Virus record (IMG/VR): IMGVR_UViG_3300046512_000030
Coordinates: 1 to 28,266 of that record
Length of the DNA stretch: 28,266 bases
DNA from: a virus
Direction: 5' to 3' (one strand)
A program made the position numbers and the translations under genes. Below the pieces are notes generated by a model. That model was not told the origin of the DNA. It was given only the letters and a program-made list of their open reading frames with translations, and made no database searches. This document shows positions 1-19,576 of this stretch, in pieces. The stretch's first letter is position 1. Every line of letters starts with the position of its first letter.

Positions 1-533
1 CAAGACTTTCTATTAACGATTTTCGAAACGGTCTGAAAGGCGATGCCGAATTCTTTGCCTATTACAGAAAGGGTTGAGCCAGTAGCGCGCTTGGCTCTGA
101 TGCTTAGAACCGCCACGTCATCCAACTTCGCGGCGCCATTGCGCGCCCCGACTGGCCGAGTGTCGTGGGCGAATTTGTCGTCCTCGTTCTCGAGGTGGGT
201 TTTCCATGAGAGGTTGCTGTAGTGGTTATTGCTCGGAATTCCATCGCCATGAGCGACTTCCGTACGGCTGCCGATCGGCCCACCGAGAAACGCCATCGCA
301 ACCAGGCGATGAGCCTCGAAATATTGGTGCTGGCAATTTATCGTGAGCTTGAAGCGCGGGTATCCAGCTTTGTGCCAGCAGAAGGAAAGGATCTTGCCCG
401 GATACGTTCTGCGGCCAGGTGTGCGCCGTCGGACGTGACCATACTCGCTGACTTCGTAATCATCGGAGGCATGGCATCGACGCCACTCCAGTGAATCAAG
501 GCTCACGCCGGCCGGAACCGGCAGAACTCTCAT
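1..533 (-). CDS. HNH homing endonuclease (NUMOD4 type), 3' end cut by window edge
   Basis: The reading frame starts at ATG 533-531 and stays open for 177 codons to the left edge of the window. Residues 20-40 hold a NUMOD4-like segment (LEWRRC...YEVSEYGHVRR). The HNH_3-type core follows, with EAHRLVAMAFLGG, then VAHGDGIPSNNHYSNLSWKT and the terminal asparagine in HLENED. The last part (ARNGAAKLDD...IGKEFGIAFQTVSKIVNRKS) reads as a helix-turn-helix DNA-binding tail. Such proteins are site-specific nucleases that spread themselves or their intron into cognate phage genes. The start overlaps the stop of a short lysin-like ORF by four bases (ATGA), so it is probably translated by coupling. The call to the family is firm; whether it is free-standing or intron-encoded is not resolved here. 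Confidence 0.88.
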   Translation of the reverse strand, partial: MRVLPVPAGVSLDSLEWRRCHASDDYEVSEYGHVRRRTPGRRTYPGKILSFCWHKAGYPRFKLTINCQHQYFEAHRLVAMAFLGGPIGSRTEVAHGDGIPSNNHYSNLSWKTHLENEDDKFAHDTRPVGARNGAAKLDDVAVLSIRAKRATGSTLSVIGKEFGIAFQTVSKIVNRKS

Positions 534-589
534 AAACCACCCCACAGCGTGCGAGCGAGGATGTCGCGGTCTTCTTCAGTGACGGTCAT
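530..589 (-). pseudogene. 5' fragment of a cell-wall hydrolase (endolysin) gene, interrupted by the endonuclease
   Basis: A 19-codon ORF, MTVTEEDRDILARTLWGGL, is preceded by the Shine-Dalgarno GGAG eight bases before its ATG. The DRDILARTLWG segment matches the N-terminus of SleB/hydrolase_2-type phage endolysins, in which LARTxWGEARGE is the normal continuation. Here the sequence leaves that pattern right after ...TGGGGT and runs into the homing-endonuclease ORF. The exon would end in T, as group I 5' splice sites do, so a spliced intron is possible; a plain insertion that breaks the gene is the alternative. The rest of the lysin would lie left of the window. This would be the lytic enzyme partner of the holin and spanins at about 17 kb. 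Confidence 0.6.
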
Positions 590-603
590 GCTTTTCTCCG
601 GGC

Positions 604-629
604 AAAAAAAACCCGCTCAGTGGCGGGCT
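604..629 (-). terminator. rho-independent terminator after the tailspike gene
   Basis: On the minus strand CCCGC-cactga-GCGGG is followed by eight T residues. It lies between the tailspike stop and the Shine-Dalgarno of the lysin fragment. Confidence 0.75.
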
Positions 630-5636: not shown

Positions 5637-6323
5637 TCAATACCCTCTCATTGCGCGGCGTTGCTGTGCGTACTGCTGACGCTGAGCGATCAGCGGGTTT
5701 GGCTGGCCTTCGGCGATCTGGGCGAGCGTCTGCGGGCCGGTGGTGGCGTGCTGCATGGCTGGCCCCGAGGCTGCTGGTTGCTGACCGGGGGAAAGCAGGC
5801 CTGAGGCTTGCTGCCCATATCTGGCGGCGTCCATGTAGGGCTTGGCCGCCGTGTTGAAGTCGGAGAGGCTGCTGCCCATTGAGCTGAGCAATCCAGGGGA
5901 TGAGGTGCCGCCAGCATAGGTGGCATTACCCATGCCGCCTGACACCGCCTGCTGACCAAGCCCGAAGCCCGTGCCACCGGTTGACGCCCCTGCAGAGCCT
6001 GAACTACTTGCACCACCACCCAGCAATCCGCCCGCCGCCCCGCCCGCATAAAGCGATGCGATGGTTTTGGCGATGCCGTGCATGGTTTGGCCGGGGCCGG
6101 TATTGATGCCAGCATCCTCTGCCTCGCCGTAACGCTGCGAGGCTGCACCGCCCCACTGGTCAACCAACGGCTTGTCGTCTTTGCCCAACACCCCATTCCA
6201 TACCTTGGTAGAGAACGGATCGCCCGCACCGTAGAGCAGGCGTGCCGGGTTGTCCTTGATCTGATCGACCATCCCTTTCAGGTTGAACGCTTCGAAGCTG
6301 CCTACATCGCCAAAGAAGCTCAT
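5637..6323 (-). CDS. Gly/Ala-rich virion protein, probable ejection component
   Basis: A 228-residue protein beginning MSFFGDVGSFEAFNLKGM. Residues 1-95 look folded, with DNPARLLYGAGDPFSTKVWN. Residues 95-150 are Gly/Ala/Ser-rich (ASLYAGGAAGGLLGGGASSS), as in membrane-penetrating ejection proteins. The C-terminal 70 residues are Gln/Pro-rich and basic (QRQQYAQQRRAMRG). The ATG overlaps the upstream stop by four bases. The first of three consecutive genes with hydrophobic Gly-rich segments, it probably acts together with the next two. No specific homologue is recognised. Confidence 0.65.
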   Translation of the reverse strand: MSFFGDVGSFEAFNLKGMVDQIKDNPARLLYGAGDPFSTKVWNGVLGKDDKPLVDQWGGAASQRYGEAEDAGINTGPGQTMHGIAKTIASLYAGGAAGGLLGGGASSSGSAGASTGGTGFGLGQQAVSGGMGNATYAGGTSSPGLLSSMGSSLSDFNTAAKPYMDAARYGQQASGLLSPGQQPAASGPAMQHATTGPQTLAQIAEGQPNPLIAQRQQYAQQRRAMRGY

Positions 6324-18601: not shown

Positions 18602-18678
18602 GATCCGCCCCCCAGGCAGAACCAGGCAAACACCACCACAACGGTGGCGACCTGAAAAATGTCGGCGATGTCATTCAT
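18598..18678 (-). CDS. 26-residue membrane peptide between NinG and Q
   Basis: The ORF begins MNDIADIFQVATVVVVFAWF and ends CLGGGS. It is one hydrophobic helix (about residues 8-22). Both its start and its stop overlap the neighbours by four bases (ATGA at each end), so it fits exactly into the chain of coupled genes, which argues that it is translated. No function is known. Confidence 0.6.
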   Translation of the reverse strand: MNDIADIFQVATVVVVFAWFCLGGGS

Positions 18679-19259
18679 GATGCGGCTCTCCCCTTCAGTT
18701 CCTTGGTCTTTGCCCGGTATTCGGCCTTGATGGCCTTCAACTGTTCGATGGTGTAGCGCTGGGGCTTATGAGGCCCTTCTAACCACTCAACCTTTTCGGC
18801 ACCGATGCGCTTCACCAGCTCAATGCGGTAGTTCACGATGTCGCCGGACTTGTGGTTGTTGCAGGGTGCACACTGCTTCCACACGTTCAGCGGCTCGAAC
18901 CGAAGCTCTGGGTTAGCGCCTACGGTGCGATAGTGCCCTGCGTGATATTGGCCTTCATGAAAGCGTCCGCAGCTCACACACGGCAGCGCAGCGTCTCTCA
19001 GGCGTATCCATTCGTTGAACACCGCCTGCACTTCCCGCATGTGGTCGGCCCGACTCTTCAGCTTCTCCTTACGAACCTTGATCTCCCGGCGCTCGATCAG
19101 GGCCAGTGCCTTGCGCTTTTTCTCCTGCTTGCCTCGGGCAATAACGACGGCGCAATCCGGCGAGCACCAGGTCTGGAAGCTCACTCTCGGGACGAAAGAG
19201 GCCCTACACGATGGGACGCTACAGGTCTTAGCCTTCCGCTCCTTCACTGAGGCAAGCAT
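18675..19259 (-). CDS. ninG: recombination protein NinG (Rap)
   Basis: A 194-residue protein. ATG 19259 has a strong AAGGAGGA seven bases away, so the longer frame from 19280 is not used. The N-terminus carries a zinc-binding pattern (KTCSVPSCRASFVP, WCSPDC). The C-terminal half holds LPCVSCGR, YHAGHYRTVGANPELRFEP, NVWKQCAPCNNHKSGD and YRIELVKRIGAEKVEWLEG, the canonical NinG/Rap nuclease pattern. In lambda it processes Holliday-type recombination intermediates. It overlaps the next upstream gene by 16 bases. Confidence 0.9.
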   Translation of the reverse strand: MLASVKERKAKTCSVPSCRASFVPRVSFQTWCSPDCAVVIARGKQEKKRKALALIERREIKVRKEKLKSRADHMREVQAVFNEWIRLRDAALPCVSCGRFHEGQYHAGHYRTVGANPELRFEPLNVWKQCAPCNNHKSGDIVNYRIELVKRIGAEKVEWLEGPHKPQRYTIEQLKAIKAEYRAKTKELKGRAAS

Positions 19260-19576
19260 GGGCAGTCCTCCTTGACGCATCCAGCGCAGCGATTCAGCGG
19301 CAGCGGCTCATCGTCTTTCGCCATCTCGGCAACGACCAGATTGATGATCGCCCCGGCACGGTCCTCCGCGATCATCTGCAACGCCCGATTGATCGAGTCG
19401 GCCGCCTCGCGCAGATCCTTTTCGTAATCCTTGGCGCCACGGTTGCCGGCACACAGCAGCTTCTTCGTGGCGTGCTGGATACAGGGGTTGGTGACTGCGA
19501 ACAGATCGAGCACCCGGTACACGTCGACCTGCTTGAGGTGCGACACTTCCTTGAAGTAGTGCGAATGCTTGCTCAT
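19244..19576 (-). CDS. conserved nin-region protein with HYFKEVSHL motif
   Basis: A 110-residue protein starting MSKHSHYFKEVSHLKQVDVY-RVLDLFAVTNPCIQHATKKL. The HYFxxVSHL start followed by 'QHAxKKLLxAGxRGxKD' matches a widespread small phage family of unknown biochemical function. A Cys-rich tail (RCAGCVKEDCPCL) may bind metal. ATG 19576 overlaps the upstream stop by four bases, so it is preferred over the longer frame from 19588. Confidence 0.8.
   Translation of the reverse strand: MSKHSHYFKEVSHLKQVDVYRVLDLFAVTNPCIQHATKKLLCAGNRGAKDYEKDLREAADSINRALQMIAEDRAGAIINLVVAEMAKDDEPLPLNRCAGCVKEDCPCLPQ

Follow-up and report, generated by a model that had tools for sequence, protein, structure and literature searches.

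What becomes of a lysis gene when an endonuclease reading frame begins inside it? This question is raised by one end of a 28,266-base virus record (the window, i.e., the whole stretch of DNA analysed here), where 17 codons of an endolysin lead straight into an HNH frame. The original prediction had read this as an interruption and offered two explanations, a group I intron or a dead lysin with lysis relying on something else; the endonuclease inside the lysin frame stood up to analysis, and neither of the explanations did. The translations of terminase, portal, tail and repressor genes, together with the relatives found, suggest that the window most probably derives from a temperate phage whose host is Pseudomonas or a relative. 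Elsewhere in it lies a 201-aa frame rich in cysteine and histidine (18675-19280, minus strand), which we take to resemble a NinG-type recombination protein.

The interrupted lysin start and its HNH frame

On the minus strand of the window, a Shine-Dalgarno sequence (GGAG, 599-596), a motif shared with native loci, precedes an endolysin start codon (ATG, 589-587). The first 17 codons of a Hydrolase_2-type endolysin follow (MTVTEEDRDILARTLWG at 589-539), then codons for G and L and a TGA stop (532-530) that overlaps the ATG of the HNH frame (533-531) as ATGA. Ribosome-binding site, 17 lysin codons and ATGA overlap had all been predicted and can be read off the minus-strand sequence. The resulting stub (530-589, minus strand), i.e., the original codons 1-17 plus two codons and the stop (MTVTEEDRDILARTLWGGL in translation), lies ahead of the Hydrolase_2 domain region. 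Its DNA matches the lysin 5′ ends of Pseudomonas phages VW-6S and phiAH14a, with similarity ending at the junction. Native lysins continue beyond TGGGGT with GAAGCC(CGC), encoding EAR, and in comparison with them the anticipated departure from the family pattern right after TGGGGT proved exact to the codon. The insertion point is codon 17 (GGT; 539-541, minus strand), the identical codon in all seven carriers. A search across the window for a second lysin homologue returned none. Just upstream of the lysin ribosome-binding site, sequence and native leaders indicate a terminator-like hairpin with a T-run (610-629, minus strand); similar hairpins precede most native lysins.

Pfam matches (HNH_3, E 5e-9; NUMOD4, E 7e-7), together with the native-lysin comparison, bore out that it is an HNH/NUMOD4 frame which sits inside the endolysin reading frame at TGGGGT. 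This homing-endonuclease-like gene (3-533, minus strand) is incomplete at the window edge, with 177 of 181 codons present counting from the ATG at 533; translation could alternatively begin at a GTG at 545. The protein combines the two domains, HNH_3 and NUMOD4, that define I-HmuI-like homing endonucleases, and its nearest solved structure is I-HmuI itself (1u3e, E 1e-10). Among the catalytic residues D74, H75 and N96 of I-HmuI, the H and N positions are kept, but Ala replaces the metal ligand D74 in this HNH family, a point against the homing reading proposed below; some other phage HNHs likewise have Ala there. The HNH frames of the carriers are intact and evolve with a dN/dS of about 0.05-0.2; the proteins of L002 and L003 are 71-73% identical to that of the window. 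The frame exits the left end of the window at base 3, and relatives indicate that what is missing are the last four codons (WSHI) and the stop.

A second, recoded copy of the lysin start

What lies beyond the edge could be read in six complete carriers, five of them IMG/VR contigs (L002, L003, L035, L087 and L091) and the sixth MT836303 (L088). In each of these six relatives, i.e., all that extend past the junction, stub, HNH gene and an intact 141-aa lysin follow one another with no spacers; in L002 and L003, the lysin ATG overlaps the HNH stop codon. The distance from stub ATG to lysin ATG is 601 bp and the junction codon is identical in all six. The lysin of L002 is a member of the endolysin family by its Hydrolase_2 domain (PF07486, E 9e-20). 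Within the 601-bp cassette, 5 nt precede the HNH gene, which is followed by a substitute for lysin codons 1-17; the cassette is flanked on the left by the 5′ end native to the recipient, reduced to a 19-codon leader closed by a stop, and on the right by the recipient's lysin body. An intact endolysin beyond the endonuclease had been named as what would speak against an interrupted gene. Such a lysin exists in the relatives, albeit in an unexpected form, namely past the HNH gene and with a recoded duplicate of its start.

Because the window sequence ends inside the HNH gene, its own downstream lysin copy can only be deduced. From the six complete carriers, the window edge (1-2, minus strand) would continue with the remainder of the HNH gene (WSHI and the stop), which encodes the Shine-Dalgarno TGGAG, and then with a recoded, intact endolysin. 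This places the expected lysin start about 14 bases past the left edge, after four further HNH codons, with a sequence probably close to ATGAACGCGACC...TACGG. A search of viral contigs for the window's own continuation found none.

Lysin codons 1-17 are thus present twice in each complete carrier, and the two copies differ in kind. The stub resembles the native 5′ end of each phage's own lysin lineage, at up to 96% identity, the value reached between L003 and the corresponding stretch of L020, which is closely related to it. In the second copy, almost the same peptide is encoded by a start rewritten with synonymous codons, whose DNA matches native 5′ ends at about 70% of positions: GAC-ATC-CTG becomes GAT-ATT-TTG, CGC becomes CGG or CGA, CTG becomes TTG, and the junction codon TGG is changed to TAC (TTC in L088). 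Codon 17 marks both borders of the insert. Five carriers share 92-98% identity over the recoded 51 nt, compared with 78-88% for their lysin bodies; the L088 copy is more diverged (80-86%), so the 51 nt are not invariant. Native lysin pairs with comparable bodies (78-86%) average about 80% over their 5′ 51 nt, with 92% reached in 19 of 1235 pairs. Since the recoded stretch is more alike than the bodies behind it, this comparison points to a recoded start that moves with the HNH gene, and to a stub and lysin body that belong to the recipient. The synonymous sites of the recoded start form the most conserved stretch overall, with certain segments of the HNH gene and of the lysin body coming close; as these are nearly as conserved, we do not claim an unusual constraint on the synonymous sites.

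The stub residues W16R and R13H, found in the stubs of L088 and L091, occur in none of 68 native lysins, and these changes are consistent with relaxed selection on the stub protein. Separately, five uninterrupted native-like lysins (L012, L017, L049, L145 and L151) carry TAC for TGG at codon 16, the junction codon, and L017 has further recoded-like codons besides. Partial conversion may have produced them, or they may be alleles that gained resistance independently.

Scattered insertions and uninterrupted recoded lysins

The insertion is absent from 122 of 128 distinct lysins, and the six carriers occupy six separate places in the lysin-body tree of these 128. A single-clade origin of the carriers was rejected on this tree (lnL difference 238, p-AU 1e-4). 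When HNH and body trees of the six carriers alone were compared, the conflict was weak in the body direction (p 0.135) and clear in the HNH direction (p 4e-4). Past the lysin, the carriers have largely unrelated DNA. Scans of a genome collection gave no matches, whether run with the HNH alignment or with the DNA pattern of the recoded start, and a plasmid search gave none either.

A stub that is specific to the lineage, an HNH gene and recoded start common to distant lineages, and a fixed codon of insertion are together the signature of recurrent insertion at a break site. The trees and alignments argue for repeated insertion at one site, which the HNH enzyme would drive, and part of the scattered presence could stem from ordinary recombination of phage lysis modules and not from endonuclease-driven homing. 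On these sequence comparisons, we are fairly confident that the locus holds a mobile, intron-less HNH homing-endonuclease element, inserted in codon 17 of a Pseudomonas-phage endolysin, that restores the gene it interrupts.

Some lysins lack the HNH gene and nonetheless have a recoded start behind a native leader, namely L028, L095 (identical to L029, L030 and L031) and L093. L028 is a clean hybrid, its first 24 nt as in its relative L120 and recoded afterwards, as would result if stub and recoded copy had recombined. L095 and L093 hold the whole recoded start, that of L095 being identical to the start of carrier L035. Probably these three lysins are loss products of the element or donors to it. 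That L095 and L093 donated the element's 5′ end, and are not loss products, strikes us as rather unlikely, though a serious contender: their complete recoded starts, and the identity between L095 and L035, are what a donor would have, but their bodies belong to different native lineages close to carriers, and the L028 hybrid breaks inside the shared GACCGCGA, as deletion or conversion would give. Both origins may be true.

An improbable alternative to a gene-restoring element is that the HNH gene is an ordinary free-standing gene upstream of the lysin and that the stub, without any part in homing, is what a tandem duplication of the lysin start happened to leave behind. Comparable HNH genes frequently sit immediately ahead of a further gene with an overlapping start, and others of them likewise end at or across the next gene's start; the recoded start could, moreover, be a foreign lysin's own, brought along with the gene. 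Chance duplication, however, sits badly with a stub that tracks the recipient lineage, with an HNH gene and recoded start common to distant lineages, and with two borders at the same codon in all carriers. The same design was sought at 17 other HNH insertion loci, including phiK7B1 ruvC and phiLM21, and none was convincing, so the design may not be a general one. In L089 and L118 (phages of the phiK7B1 and nickie type), a related HNH gene overlaps the ruvC start (ATGA) and the end of the preceding gene, and a search upstream for a duplicated ruvC start found none. The sole match well above the bulk of this screen was in L115, where the stretch preceding an HNH ORF (5815-6162) resembles a segment 106 codons into the following region (ITPP..LIQ.W...WGADQ); we set it aside, as it lies inside the downstream region and looks like a repeated domain. 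It is perhaps that, or else another gene disturbed by an HNH insertion.

Inactivation of the endolysin, with lysis depending on something else, is very improbable. Within the window only the stub is visible, as a dead gene would have it, but each of the six relatives whose sequence continues beyond the HNH gene has an undamaged Hydrolase_2 lysin directly after it, and the same is expected of the window itself. A group I intron that carries the HNH ORF and is spliced from the endolysin can practically be dismissed: phage group I introns often carry HNH/NUMOD4 genes and the putative 5′ exon ends in T, but Rfam returned no group I intron in the whole window at the gathering threshold, i.e., no catalytic core matching Intron_gpI, and only sub-threshold chance matches in the junction and L002 at E values up to 10; the 601-bp insert is coding end to end, with no non-coding part and no room for a core; and the exons do not join without duplication, as splicing of stub to body would have to take out the recoded start, although the downstream lysin lacks nothing and has an ATG, Shine-Dalgarno and N-terminus of its own.

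A candidate home-and-rescue mechanism and its precedents

How might a gene-restoring element of this kind work? The endonuclease would cut or nick uninterrupted lysin genes around codons 9-17, and repair of the double-strand break from the donor would copy the cassette in, with leader and stub as the homology arm on one side and the lysin body on the other. The stub at 530-589 (minus strand) probably serves as both left homology arm and leader peptide. The recoded copy would restore the lysin and, no longer matching the target, escape the enzyme; it would also be too diverged for easy recombination with the stub. Expression would proceed by coupled translation, from the native Shine-Dalgarno through the stub and ATGA to the HNH frame, and from there through TAATG, TGATG or ATGA to the lysin, with the last HNH codons (KSWSHI) likely providing the Shine-Dalgarno TGGAG ahead of the lysin start. 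Now and then, the stub might recombine with the recoded copy, an event that would remove the cassette and yield a recoded lysin free of any interruption. More tentatively, with the chances a little below even, the element could be a natural, self-contained home-and-rescue gene drive, which homes into an essential lysis gene, supplies a recoded, uncuttable 5′ end and ties translation of the lysin to that of the endonuclease. If so, damage to the endonuclease would also damage lysis, and the lysin population would display all states of a homing cycle, i.e., empty and sensitive, occupied, and empty and resistant.

Where a phage endonuclease gene lies inside an essential gene, the usual explanations are introns, inteins or a gene that functions in two pieces. 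A fourth solution would be an element that brings with it a recoded copy of the very part that it disrupts. We know of no phage example of a gene-restoring HNH insertion, and a search of the open-access literature, partial in its coverage, yielded no phage case of this kind. For annotation, the lesson is that an HNH gene preceded by a truncated lysin start does not necessarily signal an intron or an inactive gene.

The known systems share parts of this design. Like the intron endonucleases of the I-HmuI type, the element has a NUMOD4-HNH protein of the same family and domain order and apparently sits at its own target site; unlike them, it has no intron, and protection and rescue would come from a recoded exon and not from splicing. 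Free-standing homing endonucleases of T4 occupy intergenic sites and cut at a distance, and insertions within a gene leave it in two pieces (PMC2988022). With segF, segG, mobE of Aeh1 and mobA, the element has in common a promoter-less HNH gene in a phage operon, coupling to an upstream frame and intron-less spread (PMC2988022). It differs in lying inside a gene, at codon 17 of the lysin frame, and in leaving that gene restored and not as two polypeptides.

The nearest precedent is found in fungal mitochondria, where the mORFs of Allomyces macrogynus atp6 and of Glomus sp. atp6, atp9, cox2 and nad3 carry a diverged copy of the gene's 3′ end (PMC3630166). In both cases an intron-less endonuclease gene stands in an essential gene whose displaced end is duplicated, the element's copy is diverged in DNA with the protein kept, and the native remnant matches close relatives. 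The phage locus likewise joins an endonuclease ORF, of putative expression, to a diverged gene-end copy that replaces the original. The mORFs, however, replace the 3′ end (C-terminus) and encode LAGLIDADG or GIY-YIG enzymes, whereas the phage element carries the 5′ end with the start codon and an HNH/NUMOD4 enzyme; it also differs in its presence at a single codon across six lineages and in the recoded alleles that lack it. By its sequence anatomy, the phage element is the mirror image of the fungal mORFs at the 5′ end, and would extend that design to phages at the opposite end of the gene. Engineered home-and-rescue (HomeR) drives (PMC7968924) similarly place a nuclease in an essential target together with a recoded, uncuttable rescue part; the phage element differs from them in being natural and HNH based, in residing in phages, and in a drive activity that is putative. 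It would be a natural counterpart to such drives, in which sensitive, occupied and resistant alleles coexist in one population.
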